Of a stretch of DNA of 64,000 nucleotides, positions 40,988 to 64,000 are shown piece by piece. Position 1 is the first letter of the stretch, and each line of letters opens with the position of its first letter. Both the position numbers and the translations under genes were made by a program. The notes beneath the pieces are model-generated. The model was not told where the DNA came from, did not search any database, and saw nothing but the letters and a program-made list of their open reading frames with translations. Source of the stretch: an uncultured Bacillota bacterium (lineage in GTDB: Bacteria; Bacillota_I; Bacilli_A; RFN20; CAG-826); the NCBI GenBank assembly GCA_949287245.1, contig CASEFL010000001.1, positions 62,001 to 126,000 on the forward strand. Direction: 5' to 3'.

Positions 40988-42540
40988 TGCAAACATTGAA
41001 GGAGCGATTACTCGCCCATTTTGAGATAAGTGAAAAAGAATGGGCCGGTCTTAATGGGCCGGCTTTTTCAAATGGTATTCCCTTGCTTACCAAAAAAGAA
41101 GAAGATTTTGATCATGCCTTCGCTCTTCTTGAAAAAATTAAAAAAGAAAAGGGGAGAATTCTTGTCTATGGAGATTATGACTGCGATGGAGTAATGAGTA
41201 CCTCGATTATCCTTCGTACTTTAAGAGAATATGGAGTTGAGGCAAGCGGATATTTGCCCTCGCGCGAAAAAGATGGGTATGGCTTAACAGAAGAAAATGT
41301 TATCAAAATTGCCAAAGCGCAGTATCAGGCTATCTTTTTATGTGATAACGGTGTCAGTCAATTTTCCGCTATTGATCTAGCAAAAAAATTGAACCTTGAT
41401 GTTCTTGTTCTTGACCATCACACGCTTCCCTCTACTCTTCCCAAAAGTGACATTCTTCTTCATCCTTCCGTTCAAGAATATGGAGACATCCCTGTTTCTG
41501 CTGGCTTTTATGCCTATCTTTTTTCTCGGAAACTTTTAAAGAAAGATGACTTTTATTTGCGGGCTTTAGCTGCCTTATCCACCATTAGCGATGTTATGCC
41601 TTTAAAAAAATACAACCGCACACTTGTTAAAGAGATGCTTGAAGACTTTGAAAACGATAAAATTCCCGAATTTATCCCCTTTATGGGGAAAGAAGAGGGA
41701 CGAACAGAAGAAGAAATTAGTCGTTTCATCATTGCAAAAATTAACGCTTTAGGACGGATGGATGAAGGAAAAATGAACCGTTTACTTCTTCTTTTTGCAA
41801 ACCGGGAACAAGAAGTTCCTATCATTCAATATTTAGACAAAATTAATGAAGAGAAAAAAGAAGAAACCAATCGTGTTCTTCTTTCATTAAAATCTTCAGA
41901 AAAAGAACCTGCCATTGCTGAAATTTTAGAAAGTAAGCCGGGAATTGCCGGGTTAATTGCCAATCGTCTTTTAGAGGAAAAAGGGAAACCCTGTGCAATT
42001 TTTGTAAAGAAAAACGGGAACTTGGTCGCTTCTATACGCACAGGAAACTTCTTTTCGGCGATCGATTTTCTTAAACACTTACCCTTTATGCCTCTTGCTT
42101 TTGGGGGTCATAGTGGAGCGGCAGGTTGTACCATAAAAGAGGAAGATTTTGAAATCTTTAAAAAAGAATTTTTATATATCGCGATTAAATCCTCGCTTAA
42201 CGAAACCGTTGAGGAAAAATATATTCCTTTATCGCGAAAAGAATGCACCCTAGAAAATATGAGTCTTATTCGTTCCTTTGCCCCTTTTGGAGAAGGATGG
42301 AAAAATCCAACTTTTTCTATTGGTCCTTTCTTTCGCGAGGAATTAACTTTCGTAAAAGAAGGAAAATATCTTTCTTTCTCTCTTCCTTCGCGTGTTCGCT
42401 TTTTCTCTTTTCAGATAGGGGAAGAGGCATTTTCACAAAAGAAAAAGATCTCTCTTATTGGGAAATTAAAAGAACAACGATTTAAAGGACATATTCAAGA
42501 AACATTCTTCATTGAGAAAATAGCCCCGCACCTTGGGTAG
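40987..42540 (+). CDS. recJ: Single-stranded-DNA exonuclease RecJ
   Basis: 5'-3' exonuclease of the DHH phosphoesterase family, used in repair and recombination. DHH motifs are present: GDYDCDGVMST near residue 60, LCDNGVS near 118, DHHT near 142, and the DHHA1 part with GGHSGAAG near 376. Length 517 is short compared with 560-790 in E. coli and Bacillus; the extra C-terminal region of Bacillus RecJ is missing. The start ATG uses the last A of the secDF stop (TAATG), with no clear Shine-Dalgarno, implying coupling. An rsh promoter follows. Confidence 0.94.
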   Translation: MQTLKERLLAHFEISEKEWAGLNGPAFSNGIPLLTKKEEDFDHAFALLEKIKKEKGRILVYGDYDCDGVMSTSIILRTLREYGVEASGYLPSREKDGYGLTEENVIKIAKAQYQAIFLCDNGVSQFSAIDLAKKLNLDVLVLDHHTLPSTLPKSDILLHPSVQEYGDIPVSAGFYAYLFSRKLLKKDDFYLRALAALSTISDVMPLKKYNRTLVKEMLEDFENDKIPEFIPFMGKEEGRTEEEISRFIIAKINALGRMDEGKMNRLLLLFANREQEVPIIQYLDKINEEKKEETNRVLLSLKSSEKEPAIAEILESKPGIAGLIANRLLEEKGKPCAIFVKKNGNLVASIRTGNFFSAIDFLKHLPFMPLAFGGHSGAAGCTIKEEDFEIFKKEFLYIAIKSSLNETVEEKYIPLSRKECTLENMSLIRSFAPFGEGWKNPTFSIGPFFREELTFVKEGKYLSFSLPSRVRFFSFQIGEEAFSQKKKISLIGKLKEQRFKGHIQETFFIEKIAPHLG

Positions 42541-54267: not shown

Positions 54268-55455
54268 ATGGCAAAAATCATTCTTCATGTTGATTTAAAT
54301 GCGTTTTTTGCCACAGCCGAAGAACTTCGCCATCCTGAATTAAAAGGTTACCCCTTAGCCGTAGGAGGAGATGGACCGCGTTCGGTTATTTCTACGGCCT
54401 CCTATGAAGCAAGAAAATACGGAGTTCGCTCCGGAATGCCAGTTGGGGAAGCACGACGCTTATGTCCAAGTCTAATTCTTCTTCCCGTTGATTTTTCTTA
54501 TTATGAAATGCTATCGCGTTCCTTTTTCGCTTATCTTATGCGTTACTCTCCCCATATTGAGGAAGCTTCCATTGATGAAGGATATCTAGATTTAACAGGA
54601 CGAATAAAAGGGGATAATCCGCTTCTTTTTTTTCAACAGATCCAACAAGGTTTATATGAAGAAATTGGTTTAAAGTGTTCTATTGGGGTTGCGCCAACAA
54701 AATTTCTTGCCAAAATGGCAAGCGATTATAAAAAACCTATGGGCATAACAATTTTACGCAAAAAGGATATTCCTAATCTTCTATATCCCTTACCAATTGA
54801 TTCTTTTTGGGGAATTGGAAAGAAAACAGCGGTTCGTTTGCGTTTATTAGGAATTGAAACGATTGGTGAATTTGCGAAACGTTTAAAAAAAGAAGACCCA
54901 GAATTAAAAGATGCTTTAGGAAAATTTTTCCAAACAGCAAAAGCGTGGATTGAAGGCGAAGGAAGTGACACGATTGATGAATCTCCTTTCGATCCAAAAT
55001 CAATTGGGCATTCAGAAACCTTTCCGTATGACACGGATAATTATGGAGAAATCCGATCACGTTTACTCTTTTTATCGCGCGCAGTAGGAGAAGGGGCAAA
55101 AGGAATTCATAAAAAAGGACGAACCATAACCCTTTTAGTACGCGATAGTGATTTTCATAACCACACAAAATCCATTTCTTTTAAAGAGGCAACAAATGAT
55201 GTTGAGTTTATCTTTAATCAAGTCATAGAACTTTTTGAACAATTTTTTCTCGGCATGGAAATTCGCCTAGTGGGAGTTACTTTACAAAACCTAACGGACC
55301 CCAAAAAAGAAACTGTTCAAATGTCTTTTTGGAATTTTGAAGAATATGAGAAAATGGACCGGACAAAACTCCTTGTTCATGAACTGAATGAAAATCACCC
55401 AAAATCAAAATTATTTCTTCTTTCCGATTTAAAAAAGAAGGGAGGGAAAAAATGA
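54268..55455 (+). CDS. dinB: DNA polymerase IV (Y-family)
   Basis: Error-prone translesion polymerase. Palm motifs are ILHVDLNAFFATAEE with the first metal Asp and EEASIDEGYLDLTG with the second Asp-Glu pair. SIGVAPTKFLAKMASDYKKPMG follows, then a helix-hairpin-helix thumb (FWGIGKKTAVRLRLLGI) and the little-finger domain. Length 395 is usual. AGGAGAG is upstream. It overlaps xerD by four bases. No LexA-type box was noticed. Confidence 0.95.
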   Translation: MAKIILHVDLNAFFATAEELRHPELKGYPLAVGGDGPRSVISTASYEARKYGVRSGMPVGEARRLCPSLILLPVDFSYYEMLSRSFFAYLMRYSPHIEEASIDEGYLDLTGRIKGDNPLLFFQQIQQGLYEEIGLKCSIGVAPTKFLAKMASDYKKPMGITILRKKDIPNLLYPLPIDSFWGIGKKTAVRLRLLGIETIGEFAKRLKKEDPELKDALGKFFQTAKAWIEGEGSDTIDESPFDPKSIGHSETFPYDTDNYGEIRSRLLFLSRAVGEGAKGIHKKGRTITLLVRDSDFHNHTKSISFKEATNDVEFIFNQVIELFEQFFLGMEIRLVGVTLQNLTDPKKETVQMSFWNFEEYEKMDRTKLLVHELNENHPKSKLFLLSDLKKKGGKK

Positions 55456-56342
55456 ACATTCAGGAAGCAATTCATCAATATTCTCTCTTTCTTTCTGTAG
55501 AAAAAGGATTATTACCAAAAACCGTCGAAAATTATTTAACCGATTTACGACTGTTTTTTTCTTCCCTTCCCAAAATTAACGACACAAAAGAACTAAGCCG
55601 CAACCATGTTTATCAATATTTAGAATTCATGAAACGGAATAATTTTGCTCAAAAAACAATCGCACGGAGACTTTCCACTTTAAAAAACTTTTATGCTTTT
55701 TTAGAAGGGGAAGGTTTTTTAGAAGAAGGTCTTCCAAAAATAGAAACTCCAAAAGGGGAAAAGAAGCTTCCTTCGGTGTTAACAAAAGAGGAAGTGGAGC
55801 GTTTGTTAAACGCCCCTGATATTACAACTCCTCTTGGTTTACGTGATAAAGCCATGCTTGTTTTAATGTATTCAACAGGCATTCGTGTCTCGGAACTTAT
55901 CGCTTTAAAATTACGTCATATTTCCTGGGAAGAAAGACATTTAAAAATTGAAGGAAAAGGCGCAAAAGAACGAATTGTCCCCGTCACGCAAGATGCTCTT
56001 TTTTGGGTAAAAAAATACATAAATGAGGCAAGAAAAGACTATTCACGAAAACAAAATCCATATGTATTTTTATCGCGTTTTGGTAAACCTTTAACACGAG
56101 TCTATTTTTTTCAAGAAGTGAAACGTTATGCGCGCGAAGTGAATATTCCCATTTCCATTAGTCCTCACACATTACGACATTCCTTTGCTACTCATTTGTT
56201 AGAAGGTGGCGCCTCTTTACGAGTTGTTCAAACTCTTCTTGGACATACGAAAATTGAAACGACCGAACTTTATACGCATTTAAAAAGCAACACGATTCTT
56301 CAAGAGTACGATAGGCTGATGAACGAAAATAAAGTAAAATAG
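55452..56342 (+). CDS. xerD: Tyrosine recombinase XerD-type
   Basis: Site-specific recombinase resolving chromosome dimers at dif. A core-binding domain (residues 1-90) precedes the catalytic domain with all active residues: Arg145 (TGIRVSEL), Lys169 (EGKGAKER), His239 and Arg242 (HTLRHSFATH), His265 (LGHTKIETT) and Tyr274 (LYTHL). Length 296 is exact for XerC/XerD. The next gene is deoB, as ripX (xerD)-drm in Bacillus, which favours XerD over XerC. A dif-like site lies 3.6 kb downstream. Its partner recombinase is not in the window. Confidence 0.93.
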   Translation: MNIQEAIHQYSLFLSVEKGLLPKTVENYLTDLRLFFSSLPKINDTKELSRNHVYQYLEFMKRNNFAQKTIARRLSTLKNFYAFLEGEGFLEEGLPKIETPKGEKKLPSVLTKEEVERLLNAPDITTPLGLRDKAMLVLMYSTGIRVSELIALKLRHISWEERHLKIEGKGAKERIVPVTQDALFWVKKYINEARKDYSRKQNPYVFLSRFGKPLTRVYFFQEVKRYAREVNIPISISPHTLRHSFATHLLEGGASLRVVQTLLGHTKIETTELYTHLKSNTILQEYDRLMNENKVK

Positions 56343-58672: not shown

Positions 58673-58696
58673 ATTTCCGTGCAGAAAGATACGAAA

Positions 58697-59518
58697 ATGC
58701 CTAAAATGAGAAAAATGAAAAGAAAGATGCTTTGGTCCATTCTTACTCTACTTGGGGGAATCCTAGCCTTATTTTTTCTTTGGTGGCTTATTTCTTTTCT
58801 TTTTGAACAAGGCGGAAACTTTAATTTTCCTGGTCCTCTGCCCACTTTAGAGGAAGTTGTTTTTGCTTTATTTGGGGAAGGGGCAGGAAAAACATATACC
58901 GCAATTGGTTATTCTTTTGCGCGCCTCCTTTTAGGATTTTTGTGTTCTTTCTTTGCAGCCATAATTTTTGGAACTCTTTCAGGACTATTTCCATACTTTA
59001 GGCGGTTTTTCTCTCCATTTATTACCGTAATTAAAGCGGTACCAACAATCGCCGTTGTTGTTTTGCTTTCGAGTTTATTTTTTGGACCTGATTATAAAAT
59101 ACGAGCTCCTTATATCCCTGCGATTTTAGCCTTTTTTGTTATTTTTCCCCTTCAATATGAGGCAATTATCAGTGGTTTTTCTTCTATAAGCAAAGAAGAA
59201 AGCGATGCATTAAAACTTGAGGGGGCGGAAAGAAATTTGTACTCTTTAACGAAAGTTTATTATCCAGCATCCTTACCGTTTCTTCTTTTAAGTTTTGTCC
59301 AATCCTTAGGCTTGGGCTTAAAAGTAGTACTCATGGCAGAAATTACGGTGGGTGGTTCAATAGGAGAAGGTTTAGGGGAACTGATAAGACAAAATTCTTC
59401 TCCTATTCTCGATATGGAAAAAATCCTTGCTTATAGTGTCATTGCCATAATTCTTGTTCTTCTATTAGATTTCCTTTTACATTTATTAAAAAGAAAACTT
59501 ATAAAAGAAGAAAATTAA
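58697..59518 (+). CDS. SsuC/ThiX-type ABC transporter permease
   Basis: Membrane permease with six likely spans, the first at about residues 12-35. The EAA-like loop near residue 175 (SDALKLEGAERNLYSLTKVYYPASLPFLL) and the block VIKAVPTIAVVVLLSSLFFG are typical of the SsuC/TauC/ThiX family. Length is about 274. The start is uncertain: GTG 58679, ATG 58697 (with AGAAAGA upstream) and ATG 58715 (with TAAAAT 58702-58707 just upstream, leaderless) are all possible. It is partner to the binding lipoprotein. The ATPase is not in the window. Confidence 0.87.
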   Translation: MPKMRKMKRKMLWSILTLLGGILALFFLWWLISFLFEQGGNFNFPGPLPTLEEVVFALFGEGAGKTYTAIGYSFARLLLGFLCSFFAAIIFGTLSGLFPYFRRFFSPFITVIKAVPTIAVVVLLSSLFFGPDYKIRAPYIPAILAFFVIFPLQYEAIISGFSSISKEESDALKLEGAERNLYSLTKVYYPASLPFLLLSFVQSLGLGLKVVLMAEITVGGSIGEGLGELIRQNSSPILDMEKILAYSVIAIILVLLLDFLLHLLKRKLIKEEN

Positions 59519-60029
59519 TCTTTACATTTTCGATGAAAAAAATATAAAGAAGGGAAAGGAAAACGATAAAACTATTTTTCCTTTTCTTGTTCTTTAAAAA
59601 ATCCTGATGGTCTAGTAAGCGAAGAATCATGTAAAAAGATCAAACCTATAACAGAAAAGAAAGATTAGGTAAGTCTCTAATTAAAAAATACAAATGATAA
59701 AAATAGATAAAGAAGGATGATAAAGAAAAAAACTTATTAGGACTAAGCGAAGACGGAAACAGGTAACAAAATTAAGATATAAGACCCATCTATAAAAAAT
59801 TAAAGGGAAGATGCAATAAATGACAATTAGTAGGTTTCTAGTAATTAATTAGTTTTCCACATAAACCGCTTATTTTTGTGTATAACTGCCTTTAAAACTA
59901 AATAAAGTTTCCAAATAAATTCGATAGGAACAAATATTTTTTCAATTAACTTAACATAATAGATATTATACGAAGTTTAATATCATCTAGATTAATTAAG
60001 TAAGAAAGTTAGTCAAAAGTTTAAAACTA
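59519..60029. other. Convergent non-coding terminus region
   Basis: This 511-base, very AT-rich stretch lies between the last plus-strand gene and the first minus-strand gene. No credible reading frame is seen. It holds a weak stem AAAGGAAAA...TTTTCCTTT (59555-59584), two DnaA-box-like 9-mers (TTTTCCACA 59853-59861; TGTGTATAA 59877-59885) and the dif-like site at 59949-59976. Confidence 0.8.
59949..59976 (-). other. dif: Chromosomal dif site (XerC/XerD target)
   Basis: On the minus strand, arms ACTTCGTATAA (59976-59966) and TTATGTTAAGT (59959-59949) flank the 6-base centre TATCTA. Compared with the B. subtilis dif sequence as I remember it, 23 of 28 positions agree, and the right arm also resembles the E. 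coli XerD arm. It sits in the only large convergent gap, where gene orientation flips. The XerD-type gene is 3.6 kb away. Confidence 0.85.
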
Positions 60030-60359
60030 CTAGTTCTTTTTACTTTTATTAAGCAATTCTTCTAAGGCAATTTCTTCTCTTTTTCCTTGTAGCATTAAAT
60101 GAATGACAACCGCTTCTGCATCAATTATGATCCATCCGCTAGTGCCGTTCCCCTCGCTTTTTACCGGTTCATTTTTCTTCTCTTCGTATTCAATGAGAAT
60201 GTCACGATATGCTTCTAGTGCCCTCTCATTTGGTGCAGTTGCAAGAACAATATAATCCGCATAGGGGCTTTGACCACTTACATTAAAAGCAATAATATTT
60301 TCGGCCTTATGGTCTTCTAAAAGAGAAATCAAGTCTTTACATTCTTTTATTATTTCCAT
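60030..60359 (-). CDS. rsfS: Ribosomal silencing factor RsfS
   Basis: Small protein (109 residues) that binds L14 and blocks 30S/50S joining under starvation. The RsfS fold shows ADYIVLATAPNERALEAYRDI, GWIIIDAEAVVIHLML and the hydrophobic core order of the family; the usual W-x-LLD-x-GDVVVH appears as W-I-I-I-D-A-E-A-V-V-I-H. It is the last gene of the minus-strand yqeG-to-rsfS unit, 14 bases after nadD-yqeK. Confidence 0.93.
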   Translation of the reverse strand: MEIIKECKDLISLLEDHKAENIIAFNVSGQSPYADYIVLATAPNERALEAYRDILIEYEEKKNEPVKSEGNGTSGWIIIDAEAVVIHLMLQGKREEIALEELLNKSKKN

Positions 60360-60373
60360 ATTTATGATACTCC

Positions 60374-61474
60374 TTATAAATACGCTTTATAGCACGCTAA
60401 GCTTAAACGATTTTCACTTTCTTCCTTTTTGGACAAAAATTCGCGATTTGCTTTAAGGACTTTTAAAAAGCCTTGATGATAATCTTTAAAACATTCCTTT
60501 ATAAAAGAAGAAGAATCCCATCCTCTTCCTGGGTCAATTTTATCTGCACTATATAAGATTTGACTAAGCGGAGACATATCCTTTTTCCCAGTGCAGTGCG
60601 CCGCGATTGCCTTTAATACTTCTTCCCTATTTTCGCCGCATTCTTTATTTGCTAGATATGCCCCAACAAATTGATGATAGGCATAACTTGGTAAATCCAT
60701 TTCTTTAGGATAAAAGTTTTTCATGACCGACAAGGTAAGTTCTTGGGGAGCCTCTTTTCCGACGTCATGAAGCAATCCTGCTTGATAACAAAGAAGTTCC
60801 ATTTCCTCCCCTAAACGATTGTACGAAGCGATTTGGCGAGATAAATGGGCAACCGACAAAGAATGTTCATAACGACTACTTGATAAAAAGGAAGAAATTT
60901 TGTTAAGAAAATACAGTTTTTCCCCTTCAATATAAATTAATACTTCGTTTGGTAAATCTAAGCTTTTTCCTTCACGAATCGCGGTAGAAGAAACAGTCCC
61001 CCCACCAAAATAGGGCAAAACCTCCATTTGATAAGTAGAGAGAATATCCGAAGGAATTTCTACTCCAAAACGCGGAATCACATAAATTTTTACCAGTTCG
61101 GAAAGAAGTTTTGCCTCTTTCCAATGAGGAAACTTTTGTGCTTGATCTCCCCCAATTAATAAGCCTAGCGGGCGGTCTTTTCTTTTTTCTTTAAATTCTT
61201 TTACTGTATCAATCGTGTAAGTTACTTCTCCCTTTCGAAATAACTCAGAATCACTATAAGTGAAAGAAGAGTCACCAAAAGAGGCAAGCCCAAGTTTGAG
61301 CATCATAAAACGTTGCTCATTTGTAGCAAAAGCTTTTTTCCATCGCGGGGATTTTGCTACCAAAAAACAAACCTCAGCGTGCAAATGACGCTTAACATAA
61401 GAGGCCAAACGCAAATGCCCATTATGAATCGGATCAAAAGAGCCTCCAAAAAGAATAAGCGGAGTCTCATTCAT
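60374..61474 (-). CDS. nadD-yqeK: NadD-YqeK fusion: NaMN adenylyltransferase plus HD phosphohydrolase
   Basis: Two proteins that are separate in Bacillus are joined in one 366-residue frame. Residues 1-190 are NadD (nicotinate-mononucleotide adenylyltransferase of NAD synthesis), with LFGGSFDPIHNGHL at the N-terminus and the STAIREG signature near 163. Residues 195-366 are YqeK, an HD-domain enzyme hydrolysing diadenosine tetraphosphate in relatives, with YEHSLSVAHLSR and GLLHDVGKEAP. No stop or Shine-Dalgarno separates them. It overlaps yhbY by four bases. A comparable fusion is known in some mycoplasmas. Confidence 0.94.
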   Translation of the reverse strand: MNETPLILFGGSFDPIHNGHLRLASYVKRHLHAEVCFLVAKSPRWKKAFATNEQRFMMLKLGLASFGDSSFTYSDSELFRKGEVTYTIDTVKEFKEKRKDRPLGLLIGGDQAQKFPHWKEAKLLSELVKIYVIPRFGVEIPSDILSTYQMEVLPYFGGGTVSSTAIREGKSLDLPNEVLIYIEGEKLYFLNKISSFLSSSRYEHSLSVAHLSRQIASYNRLGEEMELLCYQAGLLHDVGKEAPQELTLSVMKNFYPKEMDLPSYAYHQFVGAYLANKECGENREEVLKAIAAHCTGKKDMSPLSQILYSADKIDPGRGWDSSSFIKECFKDYHQGFLKVLKANREFLSKKEESENRLSLACYKAYL

Positions 61475-62909: not shown

Positions 62910-63423
62910 AAGATTCTCCTATCCAAGGAATATTTCCTTTTTCTATTATCGCGCATCTTCGCCTTTTCTCCAAAAGACGATTTATTTTTGTCCATGGGGC
63001 TTCCTCTTTTGTAAGGGGAGAAAGAAGAACAACAGAGATTCCTGCTCTTTTTGCAGCTTGAACATCCGTAAGAAGTTGATCTCCTAAAAGAAGAAGAGAA
63101 GAAGGAGAAAGATTTTCTTTTTTAAGAAAACTCAAAATCACGTTAGGAGAGGGTTTATGAACGTGATAAAAGTAAGGAACATTAAGAATCGAGGCATACT
63201 TTCCCACTCTCCTTTTTCCGTTATTCGAAAAAATAATCGGTTGCAGATGCGCTTCTTTCATTTTTTGAAATAACTCAATAACTTCTTTTGAAGGAGTTTT
63301 TCTTTTATAAGAGTCACAAGTGTTATCTAAATCAATAAGAAGATGACTAAATCCCTTTTCTTGATAAAAAGAAAGAGGTATCGAAAATAAGGATGAGGCT
63401 AGATAATCAGGAGAATAAATCAT
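62896..63423 (-). CDS. yqeG: YqeG family HAD phosphatase
   Basis: HAD-superfamily phosphatase of the YqeG (IIIA) type, 175 residues, substrate unknown. LLIDLDNTCDSYKR is motif I, FSNNGKRRVG is motif II, and LLGDQLLTDVQAAKRAG is motif IV. It overlaps parC upstream by four bases (ATGA) and yqeH downstream by 14, so all three are translated together. Confidence 0.93.
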   Translation of the reverse strand: MIYSPDYLASSLFSIPLSFYQEKGFSHLLIDLDNTCDSYKRKTPSKEVIELFQKMKEAHLQPIIFSNNGKRRVGKYASILNVPYFYHVHKPSPNVILSFLKKENLSPSSLLLLGDQLLTDVQAAKRAGISVVLLSPLTKEEAPWTKINRLLEKRRRCAIIEKGNIPWIGESYEQN

Positions 63424-64000
63424 TCACCCTCCTCATTTAGTAAAGAAATTTGTTCATATTCTTCCGAAGGGAGGTCATCTTCTTCTAATTCATAAGGCAA
63501 AATTGAAGGAGGTTCATGCGCGACAAAGGAATCATCAATATATAAAGAATTCTCTAAAGACACCGCATAAAGATGTTGACGCTTTTTGCTAAGAGTAGCA
63601 TCGGAGCGTGCATGAAGTTCTTTGGGAGTTAAATTCCAATCCTCAAAGGTTAAATCAATTCGTGTTTTATCTTCCTTAATGACTCCATCGTAATTAAATG
63701 GCGCATTTTTATTTCCTACCTTATCTAAGAATAGCAAACGTTGAGGATTCATCTTTAAGGTATTAAAAAGGAAATTCGAGACCGAGCTAATTCTTTTTCC
63801 CAAAGGATAACGCGATAAATCCGTAACGCGTAAATGCCCACCATCGGTGATAACGACAAATTTTGTATTTTTATCCTCAGGAGAAAAAGCAAGCAACGAA
63901 ACAAGATGTTTCCCTTTAAAATGCCCGGCAGAGACGCCGCCACTACGAATATGAGTGCGGGAAATATCCGTTTCCATATAATGAGCTACTCTTCCTTCTT
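63420..64000 (-). CDS. parC: DNA topoisomerase IV subunit A, C-terminal part
   Basis: Partial gene; the frame is open to the window end (reading EGRVAHYMETDISRTHIRSG). About 193 residues are seen. The stretch THIRSGGVSAGHFKGKHLVSLLAF and VVITDGGHLRVTDLS match the beta-pinwheel C-terminal domain of ParC/GyrA. The ParC assignment over GyrA rests on resemblance to the LVGIRASGVKAMNL block of Firmicutes ParC, from memory. An acidic tail (EEDDLPSEEYEQ) ends it. Topoisomerase IV decatenates chromosomes at the terminus, close to dif here. It heads the visible part of the minus-strand operon. Confidence 0.75.
   Translation of the reverse strand, partial: EGRVAHYMETDISRTHIRSGGVSAGHFKGKHLVSLLAFSPEDKNTKFVVITDGGHLRVTDLSRYPLGKRISSVSNFLFNTLKMNPQRLLFLDKVGNKNAPFNYDGVIKEDKTRIDLTFEDWNLTPKELHARSDATLSKKRQHLYAVSLENSLYIDDSFVAHEPPSILPYELEEDDLPSEEYEQISLLNEEGE

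Follow-up and report, generated by a model that had tools for sequence, protein, structure and literature searches.

Where do the replication forks of this uncultured Bacillota bacterium meet, and is the site at which its chromosome dimers would be resolved confined to the usual 28 bp? The window analysed here, a stretch of 64,000 nucleotides (C1:62001-126000, on contig C1 of 259,345 bases), contains an A+T-rich gap of 511 bp between convergent genes (59519..60029 in the ORF list). An initial annotation had placed a dif site in this gap and, from the switch in gene orientation, the terminus of replication. The gap holds both dif and a conserved flanking element.

A single dif site at the replication terminus

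The 28 bases described earlier, with two arms and a six-base centre, are present at 59949..59976 (C1:121949-121976) on the minus strand, where they read ACTTCGTATAATATCTATTATGTTAAGT. On this strand the XerC-type arm ACTTCGTATAA occupies 59976-59966, the centre 59965-59960 and the XerD-type arm TTATGTTAAGT 59959-59949, the two 11-bp arms forming a partial dyad that is symmetrical at 8/11 positions. Against the sequence that we take to be B. subtilis dif, identity was 23/28 positions, which reproduced the figure first given, whereas the best scores in ten order-2 Markov shuffles of the window were 18-20. No better match was found elsewhere in the window, the second-best separate place scoring 18. 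Across the genome (1,116,766 bases in 13 contigs, 97% complete) the site was the single match at three or fewer mismatches, with no second copy, and a reversed dif used as control gave 0 matches at the same threshold.

Cumulative GC skew was computed on contig C1 and on part of contig C2 (80 kb read). On the 259-kb C1 it reached its top at C1:121852, 97 bp from dif, and the change of sign expected near the site was thereby found. Gene strand also switches there. Left of dif, the window (C1:62001-121949) has 40 long ORFs on the plus strand and 3 on the minus strand, in agreement with the earlier remark that nearly all of these genes are on plus; over the whole contig the numbers left of dif are 72 and 20. 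The companion remark, that all genes right of dif are on minus, holds within the window but fails on the contig, where the 137 kb to the right carry 106 long ORFs on minus and 12 on plus. At about 41 kb of contig C2 lies dnaA, where genes diverge, about ten perfect TTATCCACA boxes are clustered and the skew is at its lowest (position 41,322 in the 80 kb read). The coincidence of dnaA, box cluster and skew minimum shows that polarity is normal and places dif at the terminus. We infer that the replication forks meet at dif, and the skew peak and strand switch support the terminus proposed in the initial annotation.

XerC and XerD act at dif near the terminus in Firmicutes. Two genes of the tyrosine-recombinase family (PF00589) were found in this genome, one XerD-like and one XerC-like. 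The xerD gene (55452..56342, plus strand; 296 aa) lies 3.6 kb from dif, inside the 4 kb originally stated, and beside deoB, as it presumably does in B. subtilis. Its product scored best with TIGR02225 among the Xer models (E 1e-95), yet 9 bits below the cut-off of that model, and matched E. coli XerD (1a0p) at E 3.5e-50. XerC is encoded on contig C10 next to rpsB, and the gene on its other side, opposite rpsB, is presumably trmFO. The only FtsK, encoded on C1, comprises an alpha, a motor and a gamma domain. With two recombinases, and with the XerS model far below its cut-off, the genome does not have a single-recombinase system of the difSL/XerS or difH/XerH kind. We claim no FtsK-orienting (SRS/KOPS) motif on the contig: the candidates GAGAAGGG and GGGNAGGG are too rare there for a judgement (strand counts 7/3 and 9/4), and the strand skew of GAAGAAG (227/123) is shared by many G-rich words.

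Judged by homology, XerC and XerD would bind the two arms of dif and resolve chromosome dimers at division, and the FtsK translocase would bring them to dif and activate them where the forks meet. Having the 28-bp architecture, a single copy, a skew shift at the terminus and a genome that encodes XerC, XerD and FtsK, the site is a genuine chromosomal dif, as firmly as sequence can make it. It resembles B. subtilis dif with CodV/RipX (XerC/XerD) in its 28 bp, two 11-bp arms, 6-bp centre, one terminus copy and two recombinases, and differs in its sequence (23/28) and in belonging to a genome with one FtsK that bears a gamma domain. The dif itself is ordinary, one more member of a well-known set.

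Conservation of the locus and skew in relatives

The last gene left of dif encodes an ABC transporter permease (58679..59518, plus strand) and is kept in synteny. On the right the first gene is rsfS (60030..60359, minus strand; TIGR00090), next to a nadD-yqeK fusion (60374-61474, minus strand) that encodes one 366-aa protein (NF005519-like). The parC reported earlier is real and belongs to the ParC type (TIGR01061): its 3' part (topoisomerase IV subunit A) occupies 63420..64000 on the minus strand, and the gene runs past the window end to C1:128029 (869 aa). Behind parC lies parE, and the two come after yqeG. The dif gap was also considered as the seat of a transcription terminator or an RNA element; this was rejected, as neither an Rfam match nor a terminator-like hairpin was found in the 511 bp.

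A degenerate dif pattern matched 36 of 40 relatives. Three of the four negative genomes are also without yqeH, and the dif locus is probably missing from their assemblies; in the fourth, yqeH lies on a piece of a contig that has no dif match. Within the family, dif was present in 123/146 genomes. All 20 loci inspected showed the same neighbours in the same orientation, with rsfS adjoining dif and the XerC arm facing it. For the dif sites, which were found by pattern, mean information was 1.55 bits inside the 28 bp versus 0.29 and 0.42 in the flanks. The closest named genomes, by DeoB alignment, are uncultured Bacilli MAGs, several of them from gut or faecal samples.

In most same-genus relatives the skew around this dif is inverted, with genes and dif unchanged. 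Skew drops with rising GC content (Spearman rho -0.82, 21 loci). Four-fold sites in G004 and G024 are C-rich in genes of both strands, and their intergenic leading-strand skew is near neutral or slightly G-rich. A true inversion of replication skew in the congeners was ruled out, the cause being a coding-strand bias from C-ending codons on both strands; the inverted skew is codon usage and not a moved terminus. GC skew alone misplaces the terminus in GC-rich species of this genus. Across the congeners L050-L063, C1, G004:C1 and G024:C2, the sign of skew around dif follows genomic GC (25-64%), and dif and gene order stay fixed.

A DnaA-box and CTACTA element on the XerD side

In E. coli and B. 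subtilis the functional unit is known to be the 28-bp dif (PMC5357621). On the plainest reading it would be the whole functional unit here too, and any motif in its flanks would have no Xer role, serving the ends of convergent genes or persisting as a remnant. Word enrichment without a prior motif, applied to 120 bases of XerD-side sequence from each of 55 dif flanks, ranked highest TTATCCAC, in 19/55 flanks (expected 0.07), and AACTACTA, in 27/55 (expected 0.7). No comparably enriched word was found on the XerC side of the 55 flanks.

The XerD flank carries a DnaA-box-like motif followed by CTACTA, an element that the initial annotation did not include. The box, whose extended form is A[GC]TTWTCCACA, occurred in 69 of the 113 flanks (anagram mean 2.5), with almost no exceptions to a single orientation, and CTACTA in 98, where it comes after the box and is often repeated every 11 bp; these flanks come from related genomes, so that the counts are not independent and shared ancestry is a caveat. 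A box with at most one mismatch was absent from 44/113 flanks, and inverted boxes are a minority form (11/113). Some anagrams in the control scored high, probably because they resemble CTACTA. Two sets outside the discovery set had the box in the same orientation (16/25 and 25/33 flanks), CTACTA (24/25 and 31/33) and CTACTA repeated after five bases (13/25 and 19/33). An exact class-wide pattern of dif plus perfect box proved too strict (9/395), several of these matches lying away from dif.

In the window, the DnaA-box-like TTATACACA (59877..59885, minus strand; one mismatch) lies 63 bp beyond the XerD arm, in the position and orientation of the box of relatives. There is a second, inverted box-like sequence, TTTTCCACA (59853..59861, plus strand; one mismatch), and a single copy of CTACTA (59828..59833, minus strand), 115 bp beyond the XerD arm. 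About 8.5 kb into locus L337 (G434), a box and CTACTA stand beside nadD where no dif was recognised by pattern; the dif of this genome may have diverged or been lost.

Because the motif equals the box that is repeated at the genome's own oriC, and because the encoded DnaA has the standard C-terminal box-reading domain, DnaA is the simplest candidate binder. The likeness to the origin extends to a reading in which DnaA box and DnaA-trios form a unit at the terminus that DnaA could open, as in the basal unwinding system (BUS) of oriC. Strand and order are those of a BUS (box, spacer, CTA triplets), the spacer in several genomes is 10-13 bp, which is the published peak (PMC8287927), and the genome's own oriC has box-box-11 bp-TTATTATTACTATTA. 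Membership of a BUS, however, takes three or more consecutive trios no further than about 16 bp from the box, three being held minimally required (PMC8287927). Here each unit offers no more than two CTA triplets in a row, and with the 11-bp repeat the second unit falls out of register. Longer spacers, of 18-22 bp, are also common, the element lies beside dif instead of at an origin, and a second origin at the terminus fits ill with the sharp skew peak. We regard origin-like unwinding at this site as very improbable.

Spacing between the element and dif

Measured from the end of the XerD arm, boxes lie at 53, 63-68, 72-76, 84-89 and 93-99 bp, with two outliers at 30 and 40, so that most are 63-99 bp from dif in clusters about 11 bp apart. 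CTACTA lies mainly at 101-106, 110-117, 124-127 and 134-137 bp. After thinning by similarity, the best periods were 11.1 bp for the box (R 0.73, 65 thinned boxes) and 10.4 bp for CTACTA (R 0.68), in genomes that are related to one another. Both values of R exceeded all 5000 smoothed-null draws; with unique distances only, p was about 0.006 (box) and 0.001 (CTACTA). Conservation and phasing together support a box-reading protein that most likely acts beside dif.

The phasing bears on the view that 28 bp suffice. On the one hand, in several genera CTACTA (TAGTAG on the other strand) stands just beyond the stop codon of the adjacent gene, as a motif of gene ends would. On the other hand, hundreds of bases separate CTACTA from the end of the XerD-side gene in the window and in its genus, and the distance to dif is still in phase.

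Copies of the element away from dif

A strict composite pattern (TTNTCCACA, 9-39 bases, CTACTA-5-CTACTA) run on the 146 family genomes gave 51 matches, and the reversed pattern gave 0. Comparison of places and inspection of individual loci assigned 42 of the 51 to dif flanks; of the others, 1 lies in the same gap without a recognisable dif, 6 in the efp-plsY gap and 2 elsewhere. The efp-plsY matches are in a convergent gap on the XerC side of dif, at a distance of about 9-14 kb (five were read and one was placed by distance). CTACTA occurs just past plsY in 24/28 loci, and the box occurs there in 8. Since CTACTA, sometimes with the box, is thus also found past plsY without dif, the element cannot be counted strictly as an accessory of dif, and the plsY-side element, at about 9 kb, speaks against a role in Xer recombination alone. 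No doubled CTACTA occurred in three contigs of the genus (about 1.06 Mb), and the element is therefore tied to the terminus region and does not mark gene ends in general. For the reading of dif as 28 bp and nothing else, the plsY copies and the many families of the class whose dif lacks the motifs count in favour and the absence of doubled CTACTA from these contigs counts against; we consider it unlikely.

Clustering of the copies within about 14 kb of dif would also suit a Ter-like polar arrest site, bound by a terminator protein at dif and near plsY. A+T-rich repeats near dif are common to this locus and the B. subtilis RTP/Ter system, and the repeated ACTAAT words resemble what we take to be the B. 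subtilis Ter sequence. Ter sites surround dif in B. subtilis (PMC13220808). The terminator protein RTP, however, was found in 0/41 genomes with a search that detected the B. subtilis control, the copies at dif and plsY share one direction instead of forming an opposed pair, and helical phasing with dif would be left unexplained. An RTP fork trap was rejected for lack of RTP, and we hold a fork-arrest role of the element to be improbable.

In L331, L332, L333, L336 and L339, a second box/CTACTA copy lies in the efp-plsY gap in the same orientation, with no dif. A third copy of CTACTA-5-CTACTA, oppositely oriented and with no good box, was seen near the parC-yqeG junction in three genomes, at L332:7454, L334:11584 and L341:7640 (coordinates with dif on plus).

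A possible DnaA-type complex at the terminus

The reading that we favour, at a probability of roughly 60%, is a dif served by XerCD and FtsK together with a predicted DnaA-type complex on the flanking element. We infer from the motif both the binding of DnaA to the box beside dif and the purpose of that binding. A protein, most simply DnaA, would sit on the box at a fixed helix face relative to XerCD, and the resulting nucleoprotein complex at the terminus would help or time dimer resolution or termination. A wider proposal is that, in this order of Bacilli, dif carries a helix-phased DnaA-binding accessory site on its XerD side, through which the initiator would act in dimer resolution or termination, and that other families have an inverted version; this is possible but doubtful. 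If true, the replication initiator would connect the beginning of the chromosome cycle with its end.

A box beside dif that is one-sided, helix-phased and present in two differently arranged lineages suggests accessory sequences at a chromosomal Xer site, and the conserved flank suggests a role at the terminus for DnaA or for a protein that reads its box. Any novelty may lie in the DnaA-box-like flank with its repeats and not in dif. We know of no DnaA-box element beside B. subtilis dif, and the literature searched, with subscription journals mostly outside its scope, yielded no earlier report of a DnaA box beside dif. The nearest parallels are ColE1 cer and pSC101 psi (XerCD with ArgR/ArcA and PepA), in which a Xer core likewise adjoins a conserved protein-binding sequence. 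These are plasmid sites with other proteins, whereas the site here is chromosomal and its motif, recognised from sequence alone, is a DnaA box.

Several other families of the class have a dif with neither form of the motif, and the box in the orientation of this family was found in 0 of 47 dif flanks from other families. Of these 47, 12 have an inverted box, again on the XerD side and within 30-55 bp of dif (anagram maximum 3), mostly at 37-47 bp and typically at about 38 bp. Loci L273-L285, L321 and L322 carry the inverted DnaA-box-like TGTGGATAA/TGTGGAAAA on this side, at 37-47 bp from dif.
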